From a virus, in the IMG/VR virus record IMGVR_UViG_3300010403_000705, positions 310,001-374,000 of that record: a stretch of 64,000 bases of DNA. One strand, 5' to 3'. This document shows positions 1-63,646 of the stretch, one piece after another. The translations under genes were made by a program, and so were the position numbers. The notes beneath the pieces are model-generated. The model had not been told where the DNA came from and made no database searches. It was given only the letters and a program-made list of their open reading frames with translations. Position 1 is the first letter of the stretch, and each line of letters begins with the position of its first letter.

Positions 1-1
1 T

Positions 2-739
2 ATTGATCCAGAGGCTTTGATGTCAGATGAGGATGAGCATGTTGCTTTTGGCTGCATGCCATCTTTCAATGTGTATGGGTTGAAAGTAAATATGCCTCCT
101 GCACGTGAGGTGCCTTTTAGGTCTGCCGGCGGTCATATTCACTTCGGTACTAACCGACTGACGCATGCTCAAGCTGAACCAATGGTAAAAGCATTAGATG
201 CTATTCTGGGAGTAGCGTGCGTGTCTTTGTTCGCAGAGTTTGATGATCCTAATCGTCGAAAGCTGTATGGTCTTCCTGGAGAGTATCGATTGCCTCCGCA
301 TGGATTAGAGTATCGACCTCTGAGTAACGCTTGGTTGTCGCATCCTATGATTACTAATTTGGTAATCGACCTAGCTCGTAAGTGTGTAGTCTTTGGTCGT
401 AAGAATCTATTGTCTTCGTTTTGGAAGACAACAGAAGAGGAAACGATTGATACTATCATTCGATGCGATGTGGAAACATCGCATAAAATCTTAGAGCGTA
501 ACCGAGAAGTTCTCAAACAGCTTCTCAAAGCTTCCTATCAACGTGCTGGTGATAGTGATCTTGAGACATTATTTAATGTCTTCAAGAATGGTATCGGCTC
601 AGCTATCAAAAATCCTCGTGATTTCGAGACTAATTGGAAGTTCAAAACTGGGTGGATTGCACATTATGGCGGCGCGGGTGAGCCCAATGTTGCGACGTTT
701 ATGAGTAATCGTCGTCACAATCCCAAGTATCTTATGTGA
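2..739 (+). CDS. phiEco32-type COOH-NH2 amidoligase, copy 1, 5' end outside window
   Basis: This is the C-terminal half of a glutamine-synthetase-fold ligase that is predicted to join a carboxylate to an amine using ATP. The frame is open to the left window edge, and alignment with the two full paralogs at 889 and 2330 shows that about 215 residues lie outside, so the internal ATG at 17 is not the start. The retained signatures are GGHIHFG and GLPGEYRLPPHGLEYR, the family's presumed metal and substrate motifs. It heads a tandem array of three. At the DNA level bases 265-338 are identical to 3235-3308, a sign of recent duplication or gene conversion. The physiological substrate is unknown. Confidence 0.85.
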   Translation: MDPEALMSDEDEHVAFGCMPSFNVYGLKVNMPPAREVPFRSAGGHIHFGTNRLTHAQAEPMVKALDAILGVACVSLFAEFDDPNRRKLYGLPGEYRLPPHGLEYRPLSNAWLSHPMITNLVIDLARKCVVFGRKNLLSSFWKTTEEETIDTIIRCDVETSHKILERNREVLKQLLKASYQRAGDSDLETLFNVFKNGIGSAIKNPRDFETNWKFKTGWIAHYGGAGEPNVATFMSNRRHNPKYLM

Positions 740-888: not shown

Positions 889-2256
889 ATGAAGATTAAA
901 ATTTCTGATTTGATTAGCACGGGACATTCTGCTGTTGTTCAACATAAGAGTGGATATATTGGTCCGACTTATTATTTGAAGCGAAATAGTAATGAACTTT
1001 CTCGCGATTTGTATGCTGATGGATATTTTTTACCGGATGAAAAGTTTATTATCGTCAATGCTTATAGGCAAGGCGAAGTAACGCATATGTCAGTGGCTAA
1101 TTCATATGATTTTAAAGTACGTGGATATTATGTACCTTATGATCAGGAATTTGATCTGTTAGAGAATGATGATCTTAGTTTTGCTTGGGACGAGGTTAGA
1201 AAATCTAATGTGTCAAGATATCTTCATCATGGATTTACTATTGGTTCTGATCCAGAGATTTTTGTTGAGGATCGAAATGGAAATATGATTCCTGCTTTCC
1301 TATTCCTTGGTTCTAAGGAAGAACCCAATCATACTGCGATAGGTGATCATTATGGTTCCGATGGTGGTCATCCTATGTACTGGGATGGTTTTCAAGCAGA
1401 GTTTACCACTCGTGCCGGACATTGCTTGGAGTATCATACAGACTCAGTAGCTGCTGGTATTAAAGGCGTCTATGATGCAGCTAGGAAAAAATTTCCAGAT
1501 GCACGTCTTAGCTGTCGTAATGTTTTTGATATCTCTAATGATATGCTACAAACTGCTAAAGAAGAGCATGTAGCTTTCGGATGTATGCCGAGCTTTAATG
1601 CTTATGGATTGCAGGTGAATATGCCTCCTGCTCGTGAGGTGTCTTTCAGATCTGCTGGCGGTCATATTCATTTTGGTCTAGGTAAAATTACCAATGACTC
1701 TGCTGTCAGTATTGTTAAAGCATTAGATATGATTGTCGGTGTATCCTGTGTTAGTCTTTTCGATAAATTTGATAATCGAAAAAGAAGAATGATGTATGGT
1801 CTTCCTGGAGAGTATCGATTGCCTCCGCATGGATTAGAGTATCGTACACTTTCCAATGCCTGGCTTATTCATCCTTTCATTATGAATCTGGTGATCGATA
1901 TTGCTAGAAAAGCTGTGGTATTGAGCCAACGTGGTTGGCTAGATCTGTGGGTAAGTGACGAAGAAGAAACGATTGATACTATTATGAGATGCGATGTTGA
2001 GCAAGCTCGTAAGTCTTTGGAAACAAATAAAAAGACATTTATCAATCTGCTTAGTGCTTCTTATATATGGGCTTCTCAAATAGATTTAAATATATTATAT
2101 AATATCTTTTTTAATGGTCTAAAGAGTGTCATTCATGATCCAAATGATTTTGTAGGAAATTGGAAAATCAATGGTGGGTGGTTTCGTTTAGCGAGGGCTG
2201 ATAAGTGTAATGTTAGTCGAAGCATGGAAGACCTTCGTATTGGCAATAAGTTATAG
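889..2256 (+). CDS. phiEco32-type COOH-NH2 amidoligase, copy 2 (455 aa)
   Basis: This is a full-length member of the phage amidoligase family (Pfam COOH-NH2 ligase type 2, glutamine-synthetase fold), predicted to make an amide or peptide bond with ATP. The N-terminal 110 residues vary between paralogs and form a small beta-rich region. The catalytic part shows GSDPEIFVED at 119-128, WDGFQAEFTT at 165-174, GGHIHFG at 257-263 and GLEYR at 315-319, that is, the acidic and histidine residues expected to hold metal-ATP. The start is fixed by AAAAGGATT a few bases before the ATG. It lies between two paralogs and upstream of a cyclotransferase-like gene, as in predicted peptide-tagging operons. The substrate is not known. 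Confidence 0.88.
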   Translation: MKIKISDLISTGHSAVVQHKSGYIGPTYYLKRNSNELSRDLYADGYFLPDEKFIIVNAYRQGEVTHMSVANSYDFKVRGYYVPYDQEFDLLENDDLSFAWDEVRKSNVSRYLHHGFTIGSDPEIFVEDRNGNMIPAFLFLGSKEEPNHTAIGDHYGSDGGHPMYWDGFQAEFTTRAGHCLEYHTDSVAAGIKGVYDAARKKFPDARLSCRNVFDISNDMLQTAKEEHVAFGCMPSFNAYGLQVNMPPAREVSFRSAGGHIHFGLGKITNDSAVSIVKALDMIVGVSCVSLFDKFDNRKRRMMYGLPGEYRLPPHGLEYRTLSNAWLIHPFIMNLVIDIARKAVVLSQRGWLDLWVSDEEETIDTIMRCDVEQARKSLETNKKTFINLLSASYIWASQIDLNILYNIFFNGLKSVIHDPNDFVGNWKINGGWFRLARADKCNVSRSMEDLRIGNKL

Positions 2257-2329: not shown

Positions 2330-3742
2330 ATGAAGATTACTGATATTCGAAATAGTGGACGATCAATGGCGGTGAAAGTAGCGAAGCGTGATGTCTCTGC
2401 CAGATATTATTTGCGGCGAGATGGTACGCCCACTCAGGATGTACAGATTGAACCATATTCTTTTCCATCGGATGTGTTTGGTATTATTGCAACATACGAT
2501 CGTCATGATTATGTAATTGCAAGCATCATTGATTTCTGTAATTCCAGCCGAGCGCCGCGGAACTATTATATTCCACTGGATTTGGAGTTTACAGAGATTA
2601 CTGCTGACGATCCTTTGTACCAAAAATGGGTCACGTATCAAACGCAGCATCTAGAGATCATGTTGCCTCATGATTTCAGTATTGGTTCTGATCCAGAGAT
2701 TTTTGTTGAGGATAAGGATGGTACGCATATTCCAGCTTTCCTATTCCTTGGATCTAAGGAGGCGCCTGATCGTACTCCTTCTTGGGGAGGTTACGATAAT
2801 AATGGTGGATGCACTATGTATTGGGATGGCTTCCAGGCAGAATTCACAACCAAAGCTGGTGGTTGTTTAGAGTATCATACAGACTCAGTAGCGGCTGGAC
2901 TTCGTGGAGTATATGATGCTGCCCGTCAGAAGTTTCCTAATGCCAGACTTAGCTTGAAGAGTGTAGTAGATATTCCCCATAGCATGTTGGAAGAAGCTGA
3001 AGATCAGTATGTAGCTTTCGGATGTATGCCCAGCTTTAATGCTTATGGAATTAGAGTAAACATGCCTCCTGCACGTGAGGTGCCTTTTAGATCTGCAGGT
3101 GGTCATATTCATTTTGGGATTGGTAAGCTTACTCAAGAGCAAGCTACTCCCATCGTCAAGGCGCTGGATGCTATTCTGGGAGTAGCGTGCGTGTCTTTGT
3201 TTGCTAACTATGATAGTCGAAAACGTAGGCATCTGTATGGTCTTCCTGGAGAGTATCGATTGCCTCCGCATGGATTAGAGTATCGACCTCTGAGTAACGC
3301 TTGGTTGTGTCACCCTTTCATCATGAATCTGGTGATTGATGTGGCAAGAAAGGTACTTGTCCTTGGGCAAAAGGGTTTGCTGAATCTGTGGCAAGGAAAT
3401 GAAGAAGAAACCATTGACATCATGATTCGTTCAGATGTAGAAGGTGCTCGTGAATCCTTAAAAAGAAACAAGGAAATCTTCATCAAAATTCTGGAATCTT
3501 GCTATGTTATTTATAATCGTTGGGCAACTCCTCAGGACCTAGAAATGTTCTATGGTATTTTCCTCAATGGATTAGAAACTGCTATCGCAGATCCTAGCAA
3601 TTTTGTCAAGAATTGGTATCTGAATGGCACTTCACGTGATAACTATGATGATAATGGTAGGGCTTGGCGCAAGCAAGCCTCTGGTTTACACGCCAATGTA
3701 AAGCGTAGCATGGATACGCTTCGCGATGGTAAGAAGCTGTAA
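2330..3742 (+). CDS. phiEco32-type COOH-NH2 amidoligase, copy 3 (470 aa)
   Basis: This is the third tandem paralog and the longest. It keeps every family signature: GSDPEIFVED, WDGFQAEFTT, GGHIHFG and GLPGEYRLPPHGLEYR. It differs from copy 2 mainly in the first 110 residues and in a C-terminal tail of about 20 extra residues containing DNYDDNGRAWRKQ. AAGGAACG precedes the ATG. Each copy has its own leader, so the copies may be separately expressed and may use different acceptors through their divergent N-termini. That specialisation is inference. A strong terminator follows. Confidence 0.88.
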   Translation: MKITDIRNSGRSMAVKVAKRDVSARYYLRRDGTPTQDVQIEPYSFPSDVFGIIATYDRHDYVIASIIDFCNSSRAPRNYYIPLDLEFTEITADDPLYQKWVTYQTQHLEIMLPHDFSIGSDPEIFVEDKDGTHIPAFLFLGSKEAPDRTPSWGGYDNNGGCTMYWDGFQAEFTTKAGGCLEYHTDSVAAGLRGVYDAARQKFPNARLSLKSVVDIPHSMLEEAEDQYVAFGCMPSFNAYGIRVNMPPAREVPFRSAGGHIHFGIGKLTQEQATPIVKALDAILGVACVSLFANYDSRKRRHLYGLPGEYRLPPHGLEYRPLSNAWLCHPFIMNLVIDVARKVLVLGQKGLLNLWQGNEEETIDIMIRSDVEGARESLKRNKEIFIKILESCYVIYNRWATPQDLEMFYGIFLNGLETAIADPSNFVKNWYLNGTSRDNYDDNGRAWRKQASGLHANVKRSMDTLRDGKKL

Positions 3743-3791: not shown

Positions 3792-3834
3792 GTTTTAAGA
3801 TAATATGCTTTCACTCCTGTTTAAGGTAATAGTT

Positions 3835-4827
3835 ATGACGATAAGACCCTGGATGCAGCAATCACAAGGTCAACAAAGATTAAGAATTGCTGAGCCTTCA
3901 CCAACTCCTAAACAAGAAGTTGATACTGAAAAAAGGTTTGCTGGTGATTGGAATAAGGATGATGAGAACGCAGACACACAACCTGGTATTGGAACAACTA
4001 TCATTAAACATTCACCTCAACAGGAGATGAGTAAAGTGTATACCCCCTATAGTTATAAACCTACGCCGTCAGAAACTTCAAACAAAATATTTGTTTATGG
4101 GACGTGCATGACAGGTTTTTCTTTGAATAAAGTAGTAGCTCGCGACGGTTATATTAGTCCGGCGACAACAACCGCTGTTTATCGTATGATTAATATGTAT
4201 GATGAATATCCCACTATTTTAACGGGTGGTCATACTCGTATCATAGGACAACTATATTATACCACTAGGCGAACTTTGGAATTTTTGGATTCGGTTATGG
4301 ATTGTCCGAGCTTACATCATCGTGATATTATCTCCTTAGAAGATGGAACGCGTGCACATGCCTACATTATCAATCGCTGGAAGACTCCTCTTCGAGAAGA
4401 AGAAATTTTATCAGGAGACTGGATTGAATGGAAGAAGAACTCTCGAACACGAGAGAAAGAAAGAAAAGAAAAATTCAAAGCATTGATGGCTCGTGGTAAA
4501 GCAGAAGCTAAAGCTCGCCAACAAGCTATGGCAGACGATGTTATGACTACTGCTAATGATACAAAACTTACCAGTGTAGTCAAACGCTGGGACCCTATTA
4601 GAGGCGAATTCACTTATTCATTGAATACCTCGGAATCTAAAGTGAGCCCGAATGTTAGTGATAAGAGCATCTCTTCTGTAAGAAATGTTCATATCTCTGA
4701 TATTCCATTATCGGATTTAAAAATCAAATTGATTAATGACGGTATTAATCCTGAAGATTTAGAAGAGCATGCCATACGAATTGCATGCATGTCACGCTAT
4801 GGCTTATGGTATCAGATTGAAGATTAG
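3835..4827 (+). CDS. AIG2/gamma-glutamylcyclotransferase-like protein lacking the catalytic Glu
   Basis: A disordered, charged N-terminus of about 85 residues precedes a cyclotransferase-fold domain that starts with the phosphate-binding-type loop VYGTCMTG. Active members have a glutamate in the sequence LDxxEGxP, as the second copy at 16491 does (LDRVEGHP). Here the same place reads LDSVMDCP, with Met in place of Glu, so catalysis is doubtful and a binding role is possible. A basic helical linker and a C-terminal module of about 45 residues follow. A related module (SDIPLSDLK here, ADVPINDLR there) is found in the protein at 5363. I prefer the ATG at 3835 (AAGGTAAT just upstream) over the ATG at 3805. 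Confidence 0.7.
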   Translation: MTIRPWMQQSQGQQRLRIAEPSPTPKQEVDTEKRFAGDWNKDDENADTQPGIGTTIIKHSPQQEMSKVYTPYSYKPTPSETSNKIFVYGTCMTGFSLNKVVARDGYISPATTTAVYRMINMYDEYPTILTGGHTRIIGQLYYTTRRTLEFLDSVMDCPSLHHRDIISLEDGTRAHAYIINRWKTPLREEEILSGDWIEWKKNSRTREKERKEKFKALMARGKAEAKARQQAMADDVMTTANDTKLTSVVKRWDPIRGEFTYSLNTSESKVSPNVSDKSISSVRNVHISDIPLSDLKIKLINDGINPEDLEEHAIRIACMSRYGLWYQIED

Positions 4828-9544: not shown

Positions 9545-9770
9545 TGGTACGAAACTGATGTAGCATATTAGGGAGAGGCACAATGAATCATTATCACTTT
9601 GCTTCTCCCAAAATTTTATATAATAATTTATGATTAAATTATTACTGTATTTGATTGGTAGAAGTCCTATACTATCTTCATTGTGGATAACAGTATATTT
9701 TTTTCTACTAAAATTGCGCAGGAAAAACCGGATTCGATCAAAACGTGAATCCTTTACCAAGAATAAACAA

Positions 9771-16286: not shown

Positions 16287-16501
16287 TATGTAGTGATGAC
16301 TGTCCCTGCAAAGCATCTGGAGATCCGAATGCGTGGCAACATAGTAATGAAGGACATTGTTTTGAATGTTGTAATGACTGTCCTAATAAAGCCGTAATGA
16401 ATCCAGAGATATGTTCCAGGGGTAATATTTCTAATTGGCAACGTGATTGTAATTTTTATTATAAAGATGGATTATGGAAAAGGTATGGTTATGATGAGTA
16501 A
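16283..16501 (+). CDS. Cysteine-rich small protein (72 aa)
   Basis: Eleven cysteines occur in 72 residues, including CPC, CFECCNDC and an ending CNFYYKDG, consistent with one or two zinc sites. It is coupled to the phosphoesterase by an ATGA overlap and overlaps the start of the cyclotransferase gene. No family is recognised. Confidence 0.6.
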   Translation: MICSDDCPCKASGDPNAWQHSNEGHCFECCNDCPNKAVMNPEICSRGNISNWQRDCNFYYKDGLWKRYGYDE

Positions 16502-16859
16502 AATTTTTGTTTACGGATCTCTTCGACAAGGCGGAGGTTTACATGAATGCTTGGCTACTTCCAAATATCTGAATACCGTTCGTACTAAACCAGAGTATAA
16601 ACTTTATTCACTTGGAGCATTCCCCGGCTTAGTAGCTGGTGGAACTACAGCCGTGGTTGGAGAAGTTTACGATGTAACGCCAGAAGTGCTGGCTCGATTG
16701 GATCGAGTTGAAGGTCATCCTAATTTTTATTGTCGTACGACAATTATCTTACAAGATGATACGGAAGTACAAGCGTATTTACTTCCTAATAATATTCATT
16801 GGTCTAATAATCTGATTGATTCAGGTGACTGGATTGAGTTTTGTGGAGCACGAAGGTAA
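16491..16859 (+). CDS. AIG2/gamma-glutamylcyclotransferase-family enzyme
   Basis: It opens with FVYGSLRQGG, the family's substrate-phosphate-like loop, and keeps the catalytic glutamate in LDRVEGHPNFYCR. It is therefore likely active in cutting gamma-glutamyl-amine bonds to release 5-oxoproline or in a related trimming step. The 122-residue length is typical. The start is at ATG 16491 (or 16494), after AAAGG. Just downstream lies a class-II glutamine amidotransferase, a pairing seen in predicted amidoligase tag systems. Compare the Glu-less copy at 3835. Confidence 0.8.
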   Translation: MMSKIFVYGSLRQGGGLHECLATSKYLNTVRTKPEYKLYSLGAFPGLVAGGTTAVVGEVYDVTPEVLARLDRVEGHPNFYCRTTIILQDDTEVQAYLLPNNIHWSNNLIDSGDWIEFCGARR

Positions 16860-17365: not shown

Positions 17366-18091
17366 ATGTGTGGTATTTCAGGATTTACAGGTGTAAAAAA
17401 TCTTAATACTCGTGTCAAGTTAATCAAAGGTTTTGGACCTAGTATTGATCGCAGGGGATATGCGGCTGCCGGATTCGTTACTTCTAATGAAGCGGGAGAG
17501 ATAACTTTTCAAAGAAAAGTTCTTGGTTGGACAAGAGCTGATGAAGAATTTATTCTAGCGGCTGCTTCTGGTGATATGTGTATGATGCATTCACGAGGTC
17601 CTTGGACCTCAGTAGACACTGATGCTCATCCGTTTCCTGTTTCTAGAGATGGAAAAATTGTATTGTGGGGCGCTCATAATGGAGAGCTTGATCAAGCATG
17701 GGAAAGTGCTCGTCATCATAATAGAGATATTACCGTTGATAGTATGGAACTTTTTGAATTGATCGCTGATGCTCAATATAATCAGCTAAATACCATGTAT
17801 GGTTGGGGAGTAGCTGAATGGGTAGAAGCTAGCTCGCCACGTCAAGTTAAATTAGCTTGTATTTCTGACTATGCGGATTTAGTAGCTGTGTCTTTGGTAG
17901 GTGGAGGTGCAGCGTGGGCTAGCACTATGGATATTCTTAAAATTGGTCTAACCAATGCTGGTTTATCAATTAAAGAACATTATCCAATTCTAGGAAATAC
18001 TGGACGCGTCTTTGTTGCAAATGAAGAGGGTATCTTTCCAACCGAAGATACGCGAGTCTATACAAAAAATCAAATGGCATTTTGGAAATAA
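17366..18091 (+). CDS. Class-II glutamine amidotransferase domain protein, copy 1 (241 aa)
   Basis: It begins MCGISGF, so Met removal exposes the catalytic Cys nucleophile of an N-terminal-nucleophile glutaminase. Other conserved parts are HSRGPW (75-80), AHPF (87-90), WGAHNGEL (101-108) and DSMELFELI. It would release ammonia from glutamine. No synthase domain is fused, so the ammonia must serve a partner, most likely the amidoligases or the ATP-grasp enzyme encoded nearby. A second copy is at 31688. Confidence 0.85.
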   Translation: MCGISGFTGVKNLNTRVKLIKGFGPSIDRRGYAAAGFVTSNEAGEITFQRKVLGWTRADEEFILAAASGDMCMMHSRGPWTSVDTDAHPFPVSRDGKIVLWGAHNGELDQAWESARHHNRDITVDSMELFELIADAQYNQLNTMYGWGVAEWVEASSPRQVKLACISDYADLVAVSLVGGGAAWASTMDILKIGLTNAGLSIKEHYPILGNTGRVFVANEEGIFPTEDTRVYTKNQMAFWK

Positions 18092-22674: not shown

Positions 22675-23664
22675 ATGCCCGTAATTAATTGGACTGAAAT
22701 TACATCTTTTCATAACATTAACAAATATGCTAAAAGCGTTCCAGAGATACTTAACCATTATCCATCGGTAATGTATCGGGCTAAAATTAAGCTACATGGC
22801 AATAATGCGGCAATTCAAATTCATTCTGATGATCGCGTTTTGGCTCAAAGTAGAACTACAGAGCTTAGCCCAGGTAATGATTTAGCTGGATTTGCGAAAT
22901 GGGTAGAAGAAAATGCAAGTGCCTGGCGTAATAATGCTTCAGGTCTTATTGTATTTGGTGAGTGGTGTGGGCATGGTATCCAAAGTGGAACAGCTCTCAA
23001 TAACTTACATGAAAAGATTTTTGCTGTTTTTGCTGCACGATGGTTAGATGACGAGGATTCTCTAATCGTAGATCCAGAAGAATTACAAGAGCTTCTTAAA
23101 GGAAAAGACATTCCTGGAATGTATATACTTCCATGGCACAATGATCCAATTGAAATAGACTGGTGCGGCAATGAAAGCTCATTAGATGTTAAGGCTTCGT
23201 TAATTAATGAATGGGTGTTAGCTATTGAACAAAATGATCCCTGGGTAGAGAAGACCTTTAACATTAAAGGTACTGGAGAGGGATTGGTATTCTACCCTAT
23301 ATCTAAACAACACTTGGGTTATAAGAATTATTGTAATTTAGTTTTTAAAGCCAAAGGTGAGGCTCATCGCGTTGTTAAGACTAAGACATCTGTACAGGTA
23401 AATCCAGAAGCTGTGGAAAATAGCAATTTATTTGTAGATATGGTTCTTACCACAGCTCGATTAGAGCAAGGTGTACGTTCTGCTAGTGTAGATGGATCGC
23501 TAACATTTAGTAATAAATTTATTGGAAAATTTATAAATTGGATTCTAAATGATGTGCAAAAAGAAACAACAGCAGAACTAGAAGCCTCTGGATTGCAGTG
23601 GAAACAAGTACAAAAATTACTAGGAGATAAGTCACGTAATTGGTATCTAAGTAAAATGAAATGA
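22675..23664 (+). CDS. RNA ligase (Rnl2-like nucleotidyltransferase)
   Basis: This is an ATP-dependent RNA end-joining enzyme. Nucleotidyltransferase motifs are visible in order: motif I KLHG with Lys39 as the AMP-accepting lysine, FGEW (94-97) for motif III, EGLVFYP for motif IV and LVFKAKGEAH for motif V. The length (329 aa) fits Rnl2-type ligases. In phages such enzymes reseal host or phage tRNAs cut by defence nucleases. Here RtcB (53022) offers a second, chemically different ligation route in the same genome. Confidence 0.8.
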   Translation: MPVINWTEITSFHNINKYAKSVPEILNHYPSVMYRAKIKLHGNNAAIQIHSDDRVLAQSRTTELSPGNDLAGFAKWVEENASAWRNNASGLIVFGEWCGHGIQSGTALNNLHEKIFAVFAARWLDDEDSLIVDPEELQELLKGKDIPGMYILPWHNDPIEIDWCGNESSLDVKASLINEWVLAIEQNDPWVEKTFNIKGTGEGLVFYPISKQHLGYKNYCNLVFKAKGEAHRVVKTKTSVQVNPEAVENSNLFVDMVLTTARLEQGVRSASVDGSLTFSNKFIGKFINWILNDVQKETTAELEASGLQWKQVQKLLGDKSRNWYLSKMK

Positions 23665-27385: not shown

Positions 27386-28306
27386 ATGATTCTAATTGGT
27401 TCGCGTGCTCTTATGATAAGAGCACCTTATATCCTTAATAGATCGCCTAAAGATTTTGATTGGATATGCACAGAGAAAGAATTTGATCATTGGATAACTG
27501 AACAATCATTTAAAGCACAACCTACAGATGTTTCTGTTATATCTGAGAATAAAAGAATTGTGCGAGGTGCAGTAAATTGTGAGTTTGAAATTATACGACC
27601 AGGGACTAGTTCTGAGCTTTTGCAAAGCTTAGTCTTTGAAGATTCAGAAACAATAGAGACTCCATTTGGATTGGTCCCTAGTCTTGATTTGTTATTTACA
27701 ATTAAATGCTCCCACAGGTATTTAAAGAACTCACCACATTTTTGGAAGAACTTGAGCGACTATCATTTAATGAAAAGAGTCGGTGCTCAAGTAAAAGATA
27801 ATCTTTCAAGTTTTCTTAAACTTAGAGAGAAAGAAACATATACTTATACTCATCCAAAATTAAATACTTCTAGAAAGAATTTTTTTAGTGATGATCAAGT
27901 ATCTTATGTATATGACCATGATTCTATTCACGAAGCAGTAAAACATTTAGATCGCCCAGCATATTCATTTTTCCAAAAAGATGGAGAAGAAGTAGCGTGC
28001 GATAAGAATAAATTTTTTGCTTGTTCTCGTGAAGTACAATTGTATTCTGTGGTAGAGGAGTCTGCTGTATTAGCAATTGAACGCAGTTTGGTTCCTTTTC
28101 CTGGTAAGTGGTCCCCAGAATATGCATGGAGGTTCGCTTTCTCCAAAGTATGCACAAGTATATCTTCTGGATGGTGGAGAGCTTTTGCTTATGATAATGC
28201 TTTGGATTGTCTGAGATTATATCCAGTTGATTATTGGAGTAAATTTCAGAAAGGATTATCTGATGGCTTAGTTAAGCCATTTAACCCATCCGCAAAAGCT
28301 TCATAG
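27386..28306 (+). CDS. Nucleotidyltransferase-like phage protein (306 aa)
   Basis: It opens ILIGSRALMIR and then SPKDFDWIC, the GS-loop and acidic-pair layout of nucleotidyltransferase folds, and the rest (helical, with HRYLKNSPHFWKN) resembles large phage proteins of that kind. A function in tRNA or nucleotide chemistry is possible but not shown. AAAGGAAATTTC precedes the ATG. An ACCCATC heptamer lies in its last codons (28284-28290), ahead of the tRNA region. Confidence 0.55.
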   Translation: MILIGSRALMIRAPYILNRSPKDFDWICTEKEFDHWITEQSFKAQPTDVSVISENKRIVRGAVNCEFEIIRPGTSSELLQSLVFEDSETIETPFGLVPSLDLLFTIKCSHRYLKNSPHFWKNLSDYHLMKRVGAQVKDNLSSFLKLREKETYTYTHPKLNTSRKNFFSDDQVSYVYDHDSIHEAVKHLDRPAYSFFQKDGEEVACDKNKFFACSREVQLYSVVEESAVLAIERSLVPFPGKWSPEYAWRFAFSKVCTSISSGWWRAFAYDNALDCLRLYPVDYWSKFQKGLSDGLVKPFNPSAKAS

Positions 28307-28675
28307 GCTGGAGTATAAAGATTTTTCAAGAGCCTTAGACTCTTGAAGCAGACTTGTTTTATTAAGGCGTTGACGGGCGGTAATGTATATTATTGCCACG
28401 AGCCAAGATGAAATAGGAAATGAATTTTTATAAAATTCATTCAATTATTAGTAGTTATTATTAAGTAGATATGGAATGTATTAATACAAAGTAGTTGGGA
28501 ATATTAAATTAACCTATTATAGAGTGTTAATACATGGTCTTACTCAGTATAGTAAATTCACGTGCGACCATGACTGCCAGGGAAATGGGTGAATGAATTA
28601 CATTGAGCAATACCAAACGTCAAGTTAGTTTAAGATAGTAAAACATGAATTAATGTGTATTAGTTAAGTTTATAG
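28307..28675 (+). other. Non-coding leader upstream of a tRNA, with several hairpins
   Basis: There is no supported gene. Visible folds are TTCAAGAG/CTCTTGAA (28325-28347, a probable terminator), AATGAATTTT/AAAATTCATT (28419-28441), and a fold at 28533-28601 where CATGGTC/GACCATG competes with ATTCAC/GTGAAT. The last region shares GTGCGAC followed by a purine-rich GGGAA segment with the element at 6134. Possibly a structured RNA. Confidence 0.35.
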
Positions 28676-28748
28676 AGTAGAATATTGTATCGGTAGCATA
28701 ACTTGGTTTAAATCCAGGAAAGTACAGGTTCAATTCCTGTTTCTACTT
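28676..28748 (+). tRNA. tRNA with UAA anticodon and short variable loop
   Basis: A complete cloverleaf of 73 bases. Acceptor AGTAGAA/TTCTACT, D-stem TTGT/ATAA with loop ATCGGTAGC, anticodon stem CTTGG/CCAGG with loop TTTAAAT (anticodon UAA, codon UUA), variable AAAGT, and T-arm ACAGG-TTCAATT-CCTGT. No CCA is encoded. UAA means Leu, yet Leu tRNAs normally have a long variable arm, so charging identity is uncertain. Two class II UAA tRNAs also exist (52563, 63523). Confidence 0.75.
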
Positions 28749-28850
28749 TAAATTAATTGATCAATTATTTTAGATGGATGTTCGTTTCATTCACTTGACG
28801 CCAAGAAAATTCAAAATTGATTCAAAATTAAACAGAAGGAATATTGTCTT

Positions 28851-29588
28851 ATGTTCAGAATTGTTCCATACAAGCGTACCAGTGAGTCAGCTAAATTAGT
28901 AGCTCAGAAAATGACCGAGTTAAGTGGAAGGCGTGTTGTTTCTGGAGAAGCAAGTTTAGATCATAGAAATATTTTATGGGGCAATTCAAGTGTACCGCTC
29001 GAAAATCTACAACCAGCAGCAGCTATTGGAATCGCCAAAAATAAGTTAAGCACCTTAGATAAATTAAAAAGTTCGAATGTTTCTATACCAGAATACACAA
29101 CTTCTAAATCTGTTGCTGAGGATTGGGTTCGCAATGGCATTGTTGTGGTAGCTCGCAAACTCTTAAATGGTTCAGAAGGTCGAGGCATTGTACTGTGTCG
29201 GCATCTTCCTTTAGAAGATGCACCTTTATATGTTAAACTAGTTGAGAAAGATAAAGAATTTAGAGTACACGTCTGTAACGGTGTTGCTATTGATTTGCAA
29301 GAGAAGAGACGAAAAAATGGCGCCCGAAACCCTGATGGCACCAGACCAGATGGAATTATTAGAAATATTGATAGCAACTGGGTATTTTGTCGAAACAATA
29401 TTGTTGAGCCACCTGGACTTCGTGTATTAGGTATAACGGCTGTTCAAGCACTTGGATTATTGTTTGGTGCTGTTGATGTAGTGCATAATACTAGAAATGG
29501 TAGTTTGCATGTACTAGAAATTAACACTGCGCCTGGACTATGTGATTCTACTGCGACCAAATATGCTCAGGCGTTTTTAAACCTTTGA
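28851..29588 (+). CDS. RimK-like ATP-grasp ligase (245 aa)
   Basis: ATP-grasp enzymes activate a carboxylate as acyl-phosphate and join it to an amine or thiol. Visible parts are ARKLLNGSEGRGIVL (101-115, ATP-binding lysine and glycine loop), YVKLVEKDKEFRVHV (127-141), GLLFGAVDVV (202-211) and HVLEINTAPGL (220-230, with the metal-binding Glu-Ile-Asn). The pre-grasp domain is short. It heads the cluster ATP-grasp, zinc-amidoligase, glutamine amidotransferase with gaps of 1-16 bases, so it probably works in the same pathway, for example adding amino acids to a peptide tag. Confidence 0.85.
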   Translation: MFRIVPYKRTSESAKLVAQKMTELSGRRVVSGEASLDHRNILWGNSSVPLENLQPAAAIGIAKNKLSTLDKLKSSNVSIPEYTTSKSVAEDWVRNGIVVVARKLLNGSEGRGIVLCRHLPLEDAPLYVKLVEKDKEFRVHVCNGVAIDLQEKRRKNGARNPDGTRPDGIIRNIDSNWVFCRNNIVEPPGLRVLGITAVQALGLLFGAVDVVHNTRNGSLHVLEINTAPGLCDSTATKYAQAFLNL

Positions 29589-29604: not shown

Positions 29605-31686
29605 ATGGATGAAGAAGAGAATGATTTAGTAAATGACGCAGAGCCAGTACAACCCATCGAACCACTAGATGTAGGAGCGGATGTTCCAGTAATAGCTCCA
29701 GTGCCAATACCACCACCACCACCTCTTCCTCAACCTCGTCCTGTTCCTTTTATTAATAATTATGAAAGGATTAGACCACAAGCGATTTGGATGGAAGATG
29801 AACCCCGTAATGACTACTGGGAATATGAAAACCAACAGGCTCGTGAGGAGGATTTTAGGGTAAGGTTGCAACGTTATAGACAGGTCGCCGCCGCCGGCGT
29901 CGCGCCGTGGCTTAATAGAGATTGGGAAATTTGGTCGCAACAGAACGTGGGCGCAGCTCACCCAGTACCTAATCCTCATATTCCGGTGCCCAGAAACCCA
30001 AATATAAATCAATTTATAAACCAAATTATTAATAATGAGGAAATAAGAGAGCGTCACATGAATTATGATCAGTTGGTAAGAAGATATCCATCATTGGTAG
30101 ACAGGTATCTTCCTGATTTATCCAATAAGGCTAATGCTTTGAGTGCATTACGAAGTATTGAATCTGATAGAAATGCAACTCTAGAAGAGAAAACGGCACT
30201 TCGTGATTATGTAGGCAATCACGAAGTAGCATCTGTTTATAACTATCAGTGGTGTGTTGACTGCGAATCAATGGTAGGGCATCCTAATCATACACATTGT
30301 CCACATTGTATTTATCCATGTACTGTTGTTGAGCCGGGTCATGTTAATCCTCCATCCAATACTCAGTTAGCAGTATGTGGATTTTGTGGAGAATGTTGTC
30401 GTAGTAAAGGTCATAGATACTGTCCTACTTGCAATACTCACAGTGATAGATTATGTCGACATTGCAGTAAATGTACTGCTTGCTGTGCTTGTCAACTTTG
30501 TCCCGCACGAGGTTGTCAAGAGATGCAAGAATGTAATGATTGTTGTAATTGTCTCGATCATTGTACCTGTCCAGCACTACAATCTAATGGTACATATGGT
30601 AAATCTTTTCCAGCTTTCAAAAAGAAAGAGCGTCGACTGTTTGATTGCCAACGTCTAGCTGGTGTAGAGTGGGAGTACAATCGATTATCTACACAAAGAT
30701 ATTTCGACCATTGGGTAAAGAAGTGGTTAGCGGATCGGCACCAAGATGATTCATGCGGTTATGAAGCCGTTACAGCTCCCATCGCTGGCGACTACATGGT
30801 CAAATGTATAGAGGCTTTGGGAAAAGTTTTTGAAAAGAGTAAGGCGTCAATTGATAATCGATGTTCAATTCATGTACATGCAGATGCAAAAGACCTTCAG
30901 TGGTCAGATATGTTCAGACTGTTGAAAGTCTATTCGATTGTAGAACCTGTTCTTTATATGTTAGCAGGGCAAGAACGCCTCGATAATAGATATTGTGTGC
31001 CCTGTGGTAAAGATTATGCTGCTGCTCTTGAAAGGATTGATCGTAAAGATGCAGTCATGGCTGTAGCATTTACTCCCATTACACGTGATGGAAGAAAAAG
31101 TGAAGTCAATCTTATTCCTGATAATGGTCGCAATTCACAGCGTGCCAAACCAGGAAAACGTGCCGATAATCATGCGTATTGTCGACGCAAAGGATTGAAC
31201 ATTCTTCCTTGGTTGGCTGGTCGAGGACCTCGACCAAACACTCCAGTTAGCATCGTAACTCAAGCCAATGATACAATTGAAAAAATTGCGCAACGCAATA
31301 ATGTTTCAATTGCGGCATTGATGCGTTGGAATAAGATTAAACCTGGTACGCGTTTTGCGGCTGGACAAAGACTTATCGTCAATAAGCGTATTGTGGCACC
31401 TGATACTACAGTGGAGTTTAGAATTCACCCTAACACACATGATGCTAATCGTGTTATTAATTGGGTGAAAGTTATACTGCGTTTGGTTGATTGGGCAGCT
31501 AAATCAACTGATAACGATTTAGAGAAACTTCCTAAGTCAGCCCTTAGGATTCTCTGTCAAGTCATTGCACCCGAATGTGCTCCTTGGATCATGTCGAGAG
31601 TGCAAGAGTGGCGTAAGGAAACATCAAAAATCAATGGACGTCACGAGCGTCGCATTAGCCTAAAGGGCGGAAAGTACAGTTACTAA
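29605..31686 (+). CDS. Zinc-ribbon/amidoligase/LysM multidomain protein (693 aa)
   Basis: Order: acidic and Pro-rich tail (1-50), helical part (60-205), a Cys/His cluster with about 30 Cys (217-322; many CxxC), and an Amidoligase_2-type catalytic domain. The catalytic domain shows GVEWEY (353-358), CGYEAV, SIHVHAD (421-427) and, after an insertion, EFRIHPNTHD (604-613). The insertion includes a LysM domain (547-592: VTQANDTIEKIAQRNNVS, then NKIKPGTRFAAGQRLIV). LysM binds N-acetylglucosamine-type sugars, so the ligase may act near peptidoglycan or another glycan; this is inference. It is flanked by an ATP-grasp ligase and a Gln amidotransferase. Confidence 0.8.
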   Translation: MDEEENDLVNDAEPVQPIEPLDVGADVPVIAPVPIPPPPPLPQPRPVPFINNYERIRPQAIWMEDEPRNDYWEYENQQAREEDFRVRLQRYRQVAAAGVAPWLNRDWEIWSQQNVGAAHPVPNPHIPVPRNPNINQFINQIINNEEIRERHMNYDQLVRRYPSLVDRYLPDLSNKANALSALRSIESDRNATLEEKTALRDYVGNHEVASVYNYQWCVDCESMVGHPNHTHCPHCIYPCTVVEPGHVNPPSNTQLAVCGFCGECCRSKGHRYCPTCNTHSDRLCRHCSKCTACCACQLCPARGCQEMQECNDCCNCLDHCTCPALQSNGTYGKSFPAFKKKERRLFDCQRLAGVEWEYNRLSTQRYFDHWVKKWLADRHQDDSCGYEAVTAPIAGDYMVKCIEALGKVFEKSKASIDNRCSIHVHADAKDLQWSDMFRLLKVYSIVEPVLYMLAGQERLDNRYCVPCGKDYAAALERIDRKDAVMAVAFTPITRDGRKSEVNLIPDNGRNSQRAKPGKRADNHAYCRRKGLNILPWLAGRGPRPNTPVSIVTQANDTIEKIAQRNNVSIAALMRWNKIKPGTRFAAGQRLIVNKRIVAPDTTVEFRIHPNTHDANRVINWVKVILRLVDWAAKSTDNDLEKLPKSALRILCQVIAPECAPWIMSRVQEWRKETSKINGRHERRISLKGGKYSY

Positions 31687-31687
31687 T

Positions 31688-32674
31688 ATGTGTGGACTGA
31701 GTGGTTTTATTGGATTGCCGTTATCTAAAGATGAAAAGCTGATGCTTGTTTTAGGTCTCGGCGATGGCATCGACAATCGTGGTGGACATAGTTGTGGATA
31801 TGTCAGCGTTGCTGAGGATGGTAATCTTCAGTATGCCAGAAAAAAAGGCACATGGATTCGTGCTCGTATTAGATTTACTGAGGGCGCTGCTTCTGAAGTA
31901 TGTATGATGCATGCTCGTTGGGCAACTTGTGGTAATAAAGAGGATCCAATGAATGCGCATCCGTTTTCTATTCGACGTAATGGACGTGTAGTTATGTGGG
32001 GCGCACATAACGGTATGGTTCCTGATGCTTTTAAGAGTGCTAAGGCACATGGTCGCGATATCAATGTAGATTCTCAAGAAATTTTTGAGCTTCTTGCTGA
32101 TAAGAATTACGAAGGCATTCGAGAGATGTCTGGCTATGGTGTGATTACTTGGATTGATACTGATCATCGTGATTATGTTAATCTCGCCAGGCTTTCATCT
32201 CATTCCGATATTTGCGTAGTCAGTGTCAAGGGTGGTGGTGTAGTCTGGGCATCTACTTGGAAAATTCTTAAGGAAGCTCTTAAGTTAGCTGATCTAGAAG
32301 TGGATCGTGAGTTTAAGATTGACGAAATCGGTCGAGTATATCGTATTCGAGCTGATGGTGTCTTCAAAACCAAACTAGATGGTATCAAAGTTGGAACCTA
32401 TAATAAGTTGACCAAAACACAAACCACCGTTGGTTCTACGACAACTGTAGATACACCTTCAGTGCCATCTGACGAGATAGATGAAACACTTATTGTAGAA
32501 ACAAAAGTGCCAGGAGAATCAGAATATAAATATGCTTCCTCTTATGGTACTGGAGCCTCTTCAACTGTTACGAATGGCTCTGGAGTTTATTCCCCTGCCT
32601 TTTCTGCATGGCAAGGCAAGCAAGGCAATGTAGATGATGAAGAAGCGTATCGTCAATGGTGTGGGTCTGAATAA
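31688..32674 (+). CDS. Class-II glutamine amidotransferase domain protein, copy 2 (328 aa)
   Basis: It starts MCGLSGF with the nucleophile Cys2, and keeps HARWAT (75-80), NAHPF (89-93), WGAHNGMV (104-111) and DSQEIFELL (128-136). It is a paralog of the protein at 17366 with a Ser/Thr-rich C-terminal extension of about 85 residues that is probably disordered. It starts 1 base after the zinc-amidoligase stop, so translation is coupled and ammonia transfer between the two products is plausible. A strong terminator follows. Confidence 0.87.
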   Translation: MCGLSGFIGLPLSKDEKLMLVLGLGDGIDNRGGHSCGYVSVAEDGNLQYARKKGTWIRARIRFTEGAASEVCMMHARWATCGNKEDPMNAHPFSIRRNGRVVMWGAHNGMVPDAFKSAKAHGRDINVDSQEIFELLADKNYEGIREMSGYGVITWIDTDHRDYVNLARLSSHSDICVVSVKGGGVVWASTWKILKEALKLADLEVDREFKIDEIGRVYRIRADGVFKTKLDGIKVGTYNKLTKTQTTVGSTTTVDTPSVPSDEIDETLIVETKVPGESEYKYASSYGTGASSTVTNGSGVYSPAFSAWQGKQGNVDDEEAYRQWCGSE

Positions 32675-33446: not shown

Positions 33447-33971
33447 ATGGTAGCTAATATTGAAAGAAAAACAACTTGCTTACATGCAGATGTTTTTAAA
33501 AATTTTCGTTGGGAAAGTCAAAAATTTTCTGATCGATTCAATACTGAGTATGAGTATTGTGATTGTAGGATTTGTAAAAATTCTATCTATACTGGACTAT
33601 GCCGTATAGTAGATGTAGTTTCTGAAGATAATCTGAATTGGGATATCCCAAGTGCAAAGGAACAGAATATGAGTAAAGACAAATTATCGGTCTCTAGAAG
33701 TTTAAAAAGTCGTCATGCCAAAGAAGGTAATGGTATGAGTCTAAAAGAGTTTGCGCGTCGACTTGTTCGTGAGGATAATGAATCCGCCAAGGATTGGTTT
33801 GCTAACAAGGCGGGTTTGCTAAACGCAGAACGTTCTGATAAAAATAAAACACGTGTTTCTTCAGAGAAATCAGCCACCAAACTTGCCAAACGTAGTAAAA
33901 AGAAAGGCAGTAGCAATGTCTCTGTTGCCGCCGCAACACCTGCTATTACCAAATCTGCTAAGACAAAATAA
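33447..33971 (+). CDS. Cys-containing protein with basic tail (174 aa)
   Basis: The N-terminal 60 residues hold a Cys/His set (CLHADV, then CDCRICKNS) that could bind zinc. The C-terminal 100 residues are Lys/Ser/Ala-rich and disordered. An internal ATG at 33669, preceded by AAAGGAACAG, could produce a shorter tail-only protein. The function is unknown. Confidence 0.55.
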   Translation: MVANIERKTTCLHADVFKNFRWESQKFSDRFNTEYEYCDCRICKNSIYTGLCRIVDVVSEDNLNWDIPSAKEQNMSKDKLSVSRSLKSRHAKEGNGMSLKEFARRLVREDNESAKDWFANKAGLLNAERSDKNKTRVSSEKSATKLAKRSKKKGSSNVSVAAATPAITKSAKTK

Positions 33972-34337: not shown

Positions 34338-35717
34338 ATGATGACTGCACGTGAGCTAGTGGGTAATTGGCTTAAAAATCAACGTAATATTGGCGTTCGT
34401 TTAGAAGACAAAAGAAACCTCATTGAAGATGTTATTATCATTACTTCTATGAGTGATTACGGTAAGAATGAAATTTATTTTGTAGGAACATACGCCAACA
34501 CCTCTGGCTGTTCTGGTTATCTTAAAGATATTGATTCGGTTTCTATCTTAGAAGGTGAAGAACTTACTAAACTGTTCTCTCTTTATGAGAAGAAACAAGT
34601 TGAGAATTTGCATTCTCAACTTTCGCATTCTGGATATGTTGGTGTATTGTCAGAATTCTTTGTAGAAGATGAAGATGGTGCATGTATTCCTTCATCTGCT
34701 TTTCTAGCTACACGTCCTTCGTCTAGCAGTAAATCATGGTATGATTCAAAAGTTGATTCACACCAAAACGGAGTTGCTGGAGAAATTCAAACAACCTATA
34801 ATTCTTGTTTAGCCATTACTATTGATTCCTTGGCTTATGGATTGAAACATTTGTCAGATTCTGCTAAGAAACTATCTAGCAAAGCTAAAGTATCTGCTAA
34901 GTCTGTTATGCCAATTTCCGATGCGATTATGCAAGCGTCTACTGATAAAATGCCTACTTTGGGTAATGCAACTGTCAGTAACGCTTACGGATTGAAACTT
35001 AATGCGCCGGATCCACGTACTGTTCCATTTCGTTGTGCGCAGTCTGCTTTACAGTTTCAGTTGTATGGTTTTAATAATCTTACTGAAGAACGAGGTAAAT
35101 CGATCGTGATGACACTGGATGCAACACTAGGAGTTGCGTGTGTGTCTTTGCTTGCGGGAATTAATCATCCAGATCGAGTTAAGCTGGGTGGTCTTCCAGG
35201 TGATTATAGGATAGTCACTTCTGCTTTAGAATATTTTTCTCTCGGAAATTCATGGATGATTCATCCTATGATTGCTAATTTGGTTTTTGATTTTGCTCGT
35301 AAATGCGCAATTCTTGGTCATAAGAATCTAGGCAAATATTGGTCGGCTTCGAAAGAAGATGTTATTTCTTGCATGATGGATTTGGATGTAGATAAAGCTC
35401 ATGCCATCATGGATCGAAATAAGGATATTATGATGAAAATTTTCCAAGCCGCTTGGCCAATTTGTAATGGTTCTAATGCGGCTGGTGTGCCCAATTTATC
35501 TAATGAAATTAAACCAGATAAAGCTAGGGATGTAATGTATGATATTTTCTATAATGGTATCACTACAGTAATTGATAATCCCACAGACATGTCTGCTAAC
35601 TGGACTTTAGATGGTACATGGATTGCTCACTCAGAAGGTGATAATAAAAATGTATGGCGTACTCTCAATGCACTATACGGTACACGCAAGTTTCCTAATC
35701 AAGTAGTACATGGTTGA
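34338..35717 (+). CDS. Degenerate amidoligase paralog (probable pseudoenzyme, 459 aa)
   Basis: It aligns along its length with the ligases at 889 and 2330 but the catalytic signatures are lost. GSDPEIFVED is replaced by LSEFFVED (104-111), WDGFQAEFTT by GVAGEIQTT, GGHIHFG by SALQFQLYG (236-244), and GLEYR by ALEYF. The structural parts (NAYGLKLNAPDPRTVPFR, LGVACVSLLAG, GLPGDYR) are kept, and the frame is intact. It may regulate, scaffold or recognise substrate for the active copies. It has its own leader (AAAGGAATT). Confidence 0.75.
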   Translation: MMTARELVGNWLKNQRNIGVRLEDKRNLIEDVIIITSMSDYGKNEIYFVGTYANTSGCSGYLKDIDSVSILEGEELTKLFSLYEKKQVENLHSQLSHSGYVGVLSEFFVEDEDGACIPSSAFLATRPSSSSKSWYDSKVDSHQNGVAGEIQTTYNSCLAITIDSLAYGLKHLSDSAKKLSSKAKVSAKSVMPISDAIMQASTDKMPTLGNATVSNAYGLKLNAPDPRTVPFRCAQSALQFQLYGFNNLTEERGKSIVMTLDATLGVACVSLLAGINHPDRVKLGGLPGDYRIVTSALEYFSLGNSWMIHPMIANLVFDFARKCAILGHKNLGKYWSASKEDVISCMMDLDVDKAHAIMDRNKDIMMKIFQAAWPICNGSNAAGVPNLSNEIKPDKARDVMYDIFYNGITTVIDNPTDMSANWTLDGTWIAHSEGDNKNVWRTLNALYGTRKFPNQVVHG

Positions 35718-35770: not shown

Positions 35771-36295
35771 ATGAAGAATGAATTAAATATTACTGATTAT
35801 GTAGTTCAAGATTTGATGGAAGGAGAGTATGATAAAAGCATCTTACATATTCCTTTATTCCCAGTAAACATGCGTTTATTCCATACCAGCCCTCAATTTC
35901 ATAGTTTGATCATGCAGGTCATTGCATACATGAAATTTAAACTACAAAATAAGTTTGCAGGCTATTCTCAGCCTCGTGGGATTTCTGGGGCTAACTTAGG
36001 AATTCCATGGAATATTATTGGTTACCGTATTAATAGCAAAATTCATTTTATGATTAATCCGGTGGTAAAAAATAGATCCGTTGAAACGGAAATGAGAAGT
36101 TCAAATTGTGGATCTGTTAGATTAAAAGATAATATTTTCGTTGAACGACATATCTGGGTTGATGTAGAATATTACGATGTAGAAGGCGTGCTACACATGG
36201 ACCGTTTCTACGGTGCAGATGGCGGATATACAATTCAACATGAGATTGAAAACAATCTTGGTATTTTAATTACAGATAAGAATAAGGAGAACTGA
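35771..36295 (+). CDS. Peptide-deformylase-like protein with altered metal site
   Basis: Three landmarks fit the deformylase fold: RGISGANLGIPW for motif 1 (GxGLAAxQ), SSNCGSVRL for motif 2 (EGCLS; Cys ligand kept), and TIQHEIENNLGI for motif 3 (QHExDHL). In motif 3 the second His of HExxH is replaced by Asn (HEIEN). Active enzymes remove formyl groups from nascent N-termini. With this change, metal binding and activity are uncertain. The length of 174 is normal. Confidence 0.65.
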   Translation: MKNELNITDYVVQDLMEGEYDKSILHIPLFPVNMRLFHTSPQFHSLIMQVIAYMKFKLQNKFAGYSQPRGISGANLGIPWNIIGYRINSKIHFMINPVVKNRSVETEMRSSNCGSVRLKDNIFVERHIWVDVEYYDVEGVLHMDRFYGADGGYTIQHEIENNLGILITDKNKEN

Positions 36296-39768: not shown

Positions 39769-40761
39769 ATGCCGAACGATATCAGAATCTTCACAGGACG
39801 TTCGAATATAGATTTGTTTGATAAGTTTTTCGAATTTAATAAGTTTGATGAATTACTAGGAATCCCTAGCTCTTTAACTAAAGGTAAAGGGATTGTTACT
39901 CAATTTTCTGATGGCGAAATATTTTTCACTTGTCAAGAGTCTGTTAGAGGAATGGATTGTTATATATTACAATCTACTTGTGCCCCGCATAATGATAATA
40001 TCATGGAGCTCTGTATTATGTCAGACGCTTTAAAGAGAGCTTCAGCGGCAAGTGTAACTGCTGTAATTCCATATTTCGGATATGCTCGTCAGGATAGACA
40101 AGTAGCTCCTCGTACACCTATTACGGCTAAACTTGTTGCTGATATGATCACTACATCAGGGATAGATAGAGTTGCTATTTTAGATGTGCATTCGTCTCAA
40201 ACACAAGGTTTTTTCAACACTCCACTGTTTGATAATTTACAAGCTACTTCTTTCTTGTGCCAAGATTTAATAAAACATTATTGTAATTGGTTCCCTCATG
40301 ATGCGGTTATTGTTTCTCCTGATGTGGGTGGTGTAAAAAGAGCTCGTAATTTTTCTAAAAAACTTAATGGATGCGGATTAGCTATTATTGATAAAAGGAG
40401 AGATAAACCTAATGAGTCTGAAGTAATGAATATTATCGGAGATGTCAAGGGTAAATATTGTGTTCTTGTAGATGATATGATTGACACTGCGGGGACTCTA
40501 TGTCAAGCGGCGCAAGCTTTACAAGAAGCTGGAGCTATTAGCGTAATTGGTTGCGCTACCCATCCTATTTTGTCTGGTTCTGCTATTACAAGGATTAATG
40601 ATAGTCCACTTACAGAAGTGATAGTTTCAGACACAATACCTTTGTCTGAATCTGCCAAAAAATGCAAAAAAATCAGAACGGTATCCTGTGCAACGATGCT
40701 ACGTATTGCGATTGATAGGATTCATCGTTGCGGTTCAGTATCTGAAATTTTTGCGGAATAA
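39769..40761 (+). CDS. prs: Ribose-phosphate pyrophosphokinase (PRPP synthetase)
   Basis: It makes PRPP from ribose 5-phosphate and ATP. Key sites are visible: the catalytic flexible-loop region YARQDRQVAPRTPITAK, the metal-binding VHSSQTQGFF (DxHxxQ-type), and the PRPP loop VLVDDMIDTAGT. The length of 330 residues is normal. Together with the CinA-NMNAT fusion at 56745 it fits phage NAD or nucleotide salvage, in which PRPP feeds nicotinamide ribosylation. The required phosphoribosyltransferase is not in this window. Confidence 0.93.
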   Translation: MPNDIRIFTGRSNIDLFDKFFEFNKFDELLGIPSSLTKGKGIVTQFSDGEIFFTCQESVRGMDCYILQSTCAPHNDNIMELCIMSDALKRASAASVTAVIPYFGYARQDRQVAPRTPITAKLVADMITTSGIDRVAILDVHSSQTQGFFNTPLFDNLQATSFLCQDLIKHYCNWFPHDAVIVSPDVGGVKRARNFSKKLNGCGLAIIDKRRDKPNESEVMNIIGDVKGKYCVLVDDMIDTAGTLCQAAQALQEAGAISVIGCATHPILSGSAITRINDSPLTEVIVSDTIPLSESAKKCKKIRTVSCATMLRIAIDRIHRCGSVSEIFAE

Positions 40762-44062: not shown

Positions 44063-44422
44063 ATGAATGATATAATGTACAAAGTATCACCTGCTCAAAT
44101 TGGGTTGTATTATGGTAGGGGTGCACAGATTGTTCATCCAATCAAAAATGAAAAATATTTATGTCAAGCTGTAAAAACAGATAATGGAACGGTAATGATT
44201 GTAGATCGACCAGATCTACCGTACTCAATGTCCATCGAAGATCTTAGAGATATTTACGGAGGAGAAATTATTCAAATAGAAATTATGAAAGAAGTTGATC
44301 ATAACGATGCGCACTATATGCATCATGGAAATTTTCCCAAAGTAAAAAATGCACGGGCTCTTAAAAAAGTATGTAAGAAATACGATGATTATTTTAATAA
44401 TCTAGCTAAGAAGAAAAAATGA
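44063..44422 (+). CDS. Hypothetical protein (119 aa)
   Basis: A small alpha/beta N-terminus (GRGAQIVHPIKNEKYLCQAV) and a basic helical C-terminus ending in polylysine. It overlaps the radical SAM gene by 4 bases, so the two may work together. Unknown. Confidence 0.5.
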   Translation: MNDIMYKVSPAQIGLYYGRGAQIVHPIKNEKYLCQAVKTDNGTVMIVDRPDLPYSMSIEDLRDIYGGEIIQIEIMKEVDHNDAHYMHHGNFPKVKNARALKKVCKKYDDYFNNLAKKKK

Positions 44423-47489: not shown

Positions 47490-47547
47490 CAATAAATTAA
47501 TTAGGTAAGATCACACAGGTTAAATTGTGCGATTTTTGGAGGATATT

Positions 47548-63606: not shown

Positions 63607-63646
63607 CTTATTCTTAATTTATTATTTTAAAGTAATCGAGTTTATA

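Follow-up and report, generated by a model that had tools for sequence, protein, structure and literature searches.

A group of phage genes has been described as a 'peptidoglycan modification cassette', a published hypothesis in which its products alter the host surface against superinfection (PMC5498523, citing Iyer and Hardies). The cassette occurs in RIO1-like podoviruses, PA11/TC6, LUZ24/PaP3, CW02 and phiEco32 (PMC5498523), and weakening of the wall for lysis has been added as a purpose alongside the superinfection idea (PMC11945000). In these accounts the peptidoglycan role is a prediction resting on gene content (PMC5498523, PMC11945000); phage ATP-grasp peptide ligases have also been predicted to act as host-protein modifiers (PMC7824862; PMC4431377). 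We found the same gene set without a LysM domain in smaller phages, namely TC6, PaP3, IME234, CW02, a Klebsiella phage and Alcaligenes phage QDWS535. Cytoplasmic amidation of peptidoglycan precursors is familiar from MurT-GatD and AsnB/LtsA-type enzymes, which modify the stem-peptide carboxylate with glutaminase-derived ammonia; their ligase folds are unrelated to that of the enzyme described here, and the comparison is one of analogy only.

Here we analyzed a window of 64,000 nucleotides (the whole stretch of DNA under study) from a jumbo-phage record of 432,844 bp. At 29605-31686 (+), a single open frame encodes a 693-aa protein in which a Cys array precedes an Amidoligase_2 domain with an inserted LysM. 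Two described phage amidoligases resemble it in part. That of Alcaligenes phage vB_Af_QDWS535 (285 aa) shares the catalytic motifs and lies among cassette genes, including the ATP-grasp closest to the window's in the phage collection (42%), but it has no Cys array and no LysM, with a short hairpin before EFR. The amidoligase of a Manatee Spring siphovirus (MW202637, 684 aa) has 14 Cys in residues 190-300, an Amidoligase_2 domain and an adjoining glutaminase; it differs in lacking a LysM, is 24% identical overall, and ATP-grasp and COOH-NH2 ligase genes are unannotated in the stretch seen. A search of IMG/VR for close relatives of these two amidoligases returned none.

Gene content and layout of the cassette

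The window resembles the published cassette in holding ATP-grasp, Amidoligase_2, COOH-NH2 ligase, class II glutaminase and gamma-glutamyl cyclotransferase genes in one region. A RimK-like ATP-grasp ligase (28851..29588, +; phrog_2599 E 4e-56, TIGR00768 E 1e-9), matched by 310 phage records in the phage collection, lies directly 5' of the focal gene. Directly 3', one base apart, is the gene for a class II glutamine amidotransferase (glutaminase; 31688..32674, +; GATase_6 E 4e-9, phrog_14519 E 7e-17), which starts MCGLSG, carries an HNG motif and has no recognizable synthase domain. A second class II glutaminase-like protein (17366..18091, +; tblastn, NF001484 E 0.0015) starts MCGISG and is 40% identical to the first. 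Three copies of COOH-NH2 ligase type 2 stand at the beginning of the window: the first at 1..739 (+; PF14395 2e-14), with its start upstream of the window at about position 309174 of the record, the second at 889..2256 (+; PF14395 E 2e-15, phrog_3815 2e-36) and the third at 2330..3742 (+; PF14395 E 4e-12, phrog_3815 7e-34). They are followed by a gamma-glutamyl cyclotransferase-like gene of the GGACT type (3805..4827, +; PF06094 E 1e-13, phrog_2520), and a second gamma-glutamyl cyclotransferase is encoded at 16443..16859 (+; phrog_2520 E 4e-24, PF06094 2e-24).

A further COOH-NH2 ligase paralogue at 34338..35717 (+; phrog_3815 E 5e-7, and alignment) is degenerate. It is without the DPE motif, the HxH motif and the Arg of ExR, as are its counterparts in two other jumbo-phage contigs, L002 (12211-13629) and L003 (13481-14875); judging from these lost residues, it is likely to be a pseudoenzyme partner. 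L002 and L003 keep the gene order of the window, each with a pair of canonical COOH-NH2 ligases and a pair of cyclotransferases besides the ATP-grasp/amidoligase/glutaminase block. All three jumbo phages contain the quartet of ATP-grasp, amidoligase, COOH-NH2 ligase and class II glutaminase, with two to three canonical COOH-NH2 ligases apiece and two gamma-glutamyl cyclotransferases in every one. Compared with the published cassette, the jumbo-phage version extends over ~35 kb (the distance within which the cassette genes fall in the window), its COOH-NH2 ligases are duplicated and joined by a degenerate paralogue, and its amidoligase carries the Cys array and the LysM.

This association extends to IMG/VR: of 40 amidoligase relatives with both flanks complete, 38 have ATP-grasp, glutaminase and COOH-NH2 ligase genes near the amidoligase. 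A protein of phrog_4877 (~190 aa, PaP3 ORF47) accompanies 29 of these 40, whereas tblastn with four queries at 1e-4 gave no match to it in the window; such a protein is common in the cassette and perhaps not defining. The first-pass annotation had treated the focal gene as a single enzyme and overlooked this context, in which it is one member of a multi-gene cassette.

Other genes in and around the cassette were recorded. The genes for the glutaminase and the degenerate ligase flank one for a conserved basic protein of ~160 aa with a Cys-containing motif (window 33447-33971, L002 11723-12181, L003 12713-13201), which has no PHROG match. In L002, an HNH-endonuclease-like frame (9647-10162, -) separates the amidoligase and glutaminase genes, and the corresponding place in UFV-P2 holds an HNH gene. 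A DUF7277 and DUF7275 protein (window 27386-28306; DUF7275 E 4e-64) adjoins the cassette in L003 too. Elsewhere in the window are a free-standing DUF5915 protein (18310-19293, E 1e-18), which we take to resemble the C-terminal part of isoleucyl-tRNA synthetase, a coiled coil and, after it, a weak match resembling the ribosomal L7/L12 C terminus (12544-13218; Pfam E 3e-4, below the cut-off), an RNA ligase (22675-23664), a peptide deformylase-like protein (35771-36295), PRPP synthetase (39769-40761), a radical SAM protein (44419-45324), RtcB (53022-54557) and two tRNA-Leu genes, both with anticodon TAA (28675-28749 and 63523-63607). The terminase has its relatives in Bacillus-type phages at 25% identity, a match that names no host. 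A predicted secreted lipoprotein (47527-48207) has repeated NCGSC...C motifs and a Ser/Gly-rich linker, a style that we assume to be associated with Myxococcota and that is possibly a hint to the host.

Domain architecture of the amidoligase

The 693-aa protein matches Amidoligase_2 in Pfam (E 6e-12, 46.4 bits against a cut-off of 22) in two separate stretches. A profile scan of the entire 432,844-bp record placed these at profile positions 72-176 and 208-244, on either side of the LysM, which is the sole LysM in the record. The first part of this glutamine-synthetase-like domain (residues 346-546; 30640..31242, +) contains GVEWEYN at 353-359, DDS at 381-383 and HVH at 423-425, and the second part (residues 598-693; 31396..31683, +) contains the catalytic EFR at 604-606. 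All four catalytic motifs (ExE, D-x-S, HxH and ExR) are present, and across an alignment of 12 divergent phage amidoligases E355, E357, D381, S383, E387, H423, H425, R458, E604 and R606 are invariant; HxH, R458, N461 and ExR remain so in an alignment of 54 sequences. The Amidoligase_2-like motifs noted at first reading are thereby borne out, by a profile score above the cut-off and by conservation.

Between the two parts, Pfam recognizes a LysM at residues 553-592 (E 2e-8, 34.2 bits against a cut-off of 20.9), within an insert of residues ~547-597 (31243..31395, +) for which a beta-alpha-alpha-beta fold is predicted. Its position ahead of the EFR at 604-606 agrees with the earlier description of a LysM segment before EFRIHP. 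Foldseek matched it to the AtlA LysM (2mkx) with a probability of 1.00 and 39% identity over 49 columns. AtlA, a secreted autolysin, carries its LysMs in tandem at the end; the two proteins are alike in the LysM fold and differ in that the one LysM of the focal protein sits inside a catalytic domain. We give the insertion boundary from the Pfam limits, conservation and predicted strands, and it is uncertain by some residues: when deletions were made in silico and scored against the profile of the relatives, many came out nearly level and the best gained 4 bits, which fixed no exact boundary.

We then predicted the structure of residues 326-693 with AlphaFold2 from 54 sequences (pLDDT 70.8, pTM 0.70). 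In ten-residue blocks, pLDDT was 83-96 in the core and 71-85 in the LysM. MAFFT had put the asparagine strand of the relatives on LysM strand 2 (N593), though N532 is equally plausible, so the AlphaFold2 input was imperfect near the insert. Structural alignment, run against candidates proposed by Foldseek, gave Z 11.6 to the YbdK-like ligase 1tt4 and to glutamine synthetase, and covered model residues 20-356, on both sides of the LysM. The likeness to YbdK (GCS2, glutamate-cysteine ligase 2) and glutamine synthetase lies in the predicted fold, with 208-227 residues aligned; identity to the focal protein is 8-14%, and the substrates are presumed to differ. Foldseek E-values for the catalytic domain were weak (best 0.01, to a plant glutamate-cysteine ligase), and the amidoligase profile gave no sequence match to solved structures. 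In the model, the glutamine-synthetase/YbdK-like ligase fold is intact around the insert. Structure prediction had been proposed with the first-pass annotation as a check; as predicted (AlphaFold2, Z 11.6, Foldseek 1.00), the catalytic domain is unbroken and the LysM is folded, so that neither a catalytic domain disrupted by the insert nor a missing LysM fold was encountered.

Upstream of the catalytic domain lies a Cys/His array (residues 214-325; 30244..30579, +), a probable metal-binding region. The protein has 34 Cys and 13 CxxC motifs, and 25 of the Cys fall within 106 residues (217-322), whereas in 20,000 random placements a stretch of that length received 9.6 on average and never more than 16. 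Within the array, the three jumbo phages share 23 invariant Cys and 5 invariant His. The first count had been about 30 Cys in CxxC clusters; the clustering is real, but the array holds 25, and the remaining nine are scattered over the catalytic part. The accompanying label of a zinc-ribbon array was taken from spacing: clusters of CxxC pairs are present, yet no Pfam zinc-ribbon or zinc-finger family matched the focal protein up to E 10. The best Pfam zinc-ribbon match, Zn_ribbon_15 at E 9.1, came from one homologue only, and a PDB search returned at best a ZFAT finger at a non-significant E of 0.056. Full-length AlphaFold2 from three sequences (pLDDT 38.5) ordered the LysM and some helices only, with pLDDT below 30 in the array. 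The array probably binds metal. Taken together, Pfam matches above the cut-offs, the record-wide scan and Cys clustering beyond random placement indicate that the order of domains (Cys array, amidoligase, LysM, EFR), as originally read, is real and not due to chance.

Conservation and distribution of the LysM insertion

Homologues that share the Cys array, the LysM and the EFR, 55-62% identical to the focal protein, are encoded by the two further jumbo-phage contigs (L002 and L003; 451,956 and 446,541 bp). Their Amidoligase_2 scores are 28.8 and 42.7 bits (cut-off 22), and for the L003 frame a plausible upstream ATG in another frame makes the start uncertain. The LysM scores 34.2, 32.7 and 35.9 bits in the three phages (cut-off 20.9), and its signature residues are retained: G/N-D-T/S, and V-S-x-A-A-L-M-R-W-N-K, invariant except for x. 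Both flanks of the LysM are also mostly invariant (YCRRKGLNILPWLAGRGPRP and APDTTVEFRIHPNT). Identity between phages is 51-65% in the LysM against 69-78% in the adjoining catalytic parts. With pS of 0.64-0.87, synonymous sites of the LysM are near saturation, and its pN of 0.22-0.32 resembles that of the Cys region and is somewhat higher than that of the catalytic parts. The near-saturated synonymous sites and the low pN indicate that the lineage has long had the LysM and that purifying selection maintains it, although less tightly than the catalytic core. Chance, a frameshift or a chimeric assembly was ruled out as the source of the insert by the same architecture in two independently assembled contigs and by the nearly saturated synonymous divergence.

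By comparison, 67 of 69 IMG/VR relatives have a short N-(L/V)...G-S-(L/I/V)-E-(F/I/V)-R hairpin without an insert, and the other two were missed by the pattern. Searches for more LysM-amidoligases in viral contigs, bacterial genomes, plasmids and phages, with scans that reach close relatives only, yielded only the two jumbo relatives, and we found no published case of the combination. The LysM insertion in the cassette amidoligase is therefore real, conserved and, as far as could be searched, previously undescribed.

Candidate substrates of the cassette

No signal peptide or membrane segment is recognizable in the 693-aa protein, which starts with the acidic MDEEENDL and has a top 19-residue hydropathy of 1.25. 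As the reaction also needs ATP, the enzyme probably works in the cytoplasm, with lipid II or soluble muropeptide precursors as its likely substrates. Any action on the wall would therefore probably be on cytoplasmic precursors rather than on the mature sacculus. The original proposal that it is targeted to peptidoglycan agrees with the published cassette hypothesis; our reading differs from it in making precursors, and not finished peptidoglycan, the likely target.

We tentatively prefer, at slightly less than an even chance, the reading that the focal gene encodes a glutamine-synthetase-fold amidoligase of the phage cassette, with a LysM that serves to dock a wall precursor containing GlcNAc in the cytoplasm. 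In such a pathway, the class II glutaminase would free ammonia from glutamine, and the amidoligase would use ATP to convert a carboxylate to an acyl phosphate and join this to ammonia or to an amino group. Further residues would be added by the ATP-grasp and COOH-NH2 ligases, and the cyclotransferases would trim gamma-glutamyl groups. The LysM may hold the GlcNAc-containing precursor, either lipid II or a muropeptide linked to UDP or a disaccharide, so that the stem peptide of this precursor reaches the active site, with the Cys array as a metal-stabilized scaffold or partner-binding part. Newly made wall would then contain an altered stem peptide, and the purpose, following published suggestions, could be superinfection exclusion or easier lysis. 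With rather less assurance, we suggest a narrower form, in which the LysM is a substrate-docking domain in the active-site region of a ligase of this fold that amidates or extends GlcNAc-bearing cytoplasmic precursors, and the dead COOH-NH2 ligase paralogue is a possible regulatory or structural subunit. Several points count against the wall-precursor reading: the published hypothesis rests on gene content, a single LysM is usually a weak binder and LysM folds are able to serve other roles, hundreds of other cassette phages have no LysM, a RimK-like ATP-grasp fits protein or peptide tagging equally, a protein without a signal peptide has no reach to the mature wall from within the cell, and the Foldseek E-values for the catalytic domain are weak.

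The strongest competing explanation is that the cassette tags a host or phage protein with amino acids, as RimK does with ribosomal protein S6; the Cys array would then read a protein or nucleic-acid target, and the LysM would be a structural or interaction module. Arrays of 25 Cys are found more typically in proteins that bind nucleic acids or other proteins than in enzymes of the wall, which speaks for tagging. So does the RimK-like character of the ATP-grasp, seen in its TIGR00768 match (E 1e-9) and in phrog_2599, which is annotated as S6 glutaminyl transferase; modification of host proteins is also what has been predicted for phage ATP-grasp peptide ligases (PMC7824862; PMC4431377). Tagging leaves unexplained, however, why purifying selection should keep a canonical LysM that is 39% identical to the peptidoglycan-binding LysM of AtlA, and amidation and gamma-glutamyl chemistry suit the glutaminase and cyclotransferase partners better. 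We consider tagging unlikely, yet a serious contender.

Somewhat less probable again is that enzyme and cassette are as described while the LysM, no longer able to bind glycan, is present as a structural insertion. The lone LysM of this protein is cytoplasmic, all examined relatives of the lineage do without one, and its identity between phages falls below that of the catalytic flanks, all of which count for this reading; the retained signature residues and a pN well below pS argue the other way. We regard as improbable a small-molecule or nucleotide pathway in which the cassette makes an amide-bearing metabolite, such as one from which hypermodified DNA bases are made. Amidoligase families have been described together with metabolite synthesis, to go by the title of Iyer 2009 as cited in PMC4431377. 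No base-modification enzyme was recognized beside the cassette among the genes examined, however, and such a pathway leaves the LysM without a role. Although LysM domains occur commonly in phage tail proteins and endolysins, which supplied the only annotated phage LysM matches in the region search, action on mature peptidoglycan by an enzyme carried in the virion or freed at lysis is very improbable, as the neighbors are cassette enzymes rather than structural genes and an ATP-dependent ligase would meet a periplasm without ATP.

The cassette itself is already known; what is new is the LysM-bearing form of its amidoligase. Because wall alteration had already been suspected of the cassette to which the partner genes belong, the LysM is a physical hint to the target of the cassette, not proof of it. 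The cassette ATP-grasp occurs in 310 phage records, yet the cassette substrate is known by conjecture alone, and a LysM within a cassette enzyme supports the peptidoglycan hypothesis independently, at the level of sequence. That hypothesis becomes directly testable through one small domain, which either binds the precursor or does not. If the docking reading is true, the LysM-amidoligase would be the first physical link between a widespread phage cassette and the cell wall.
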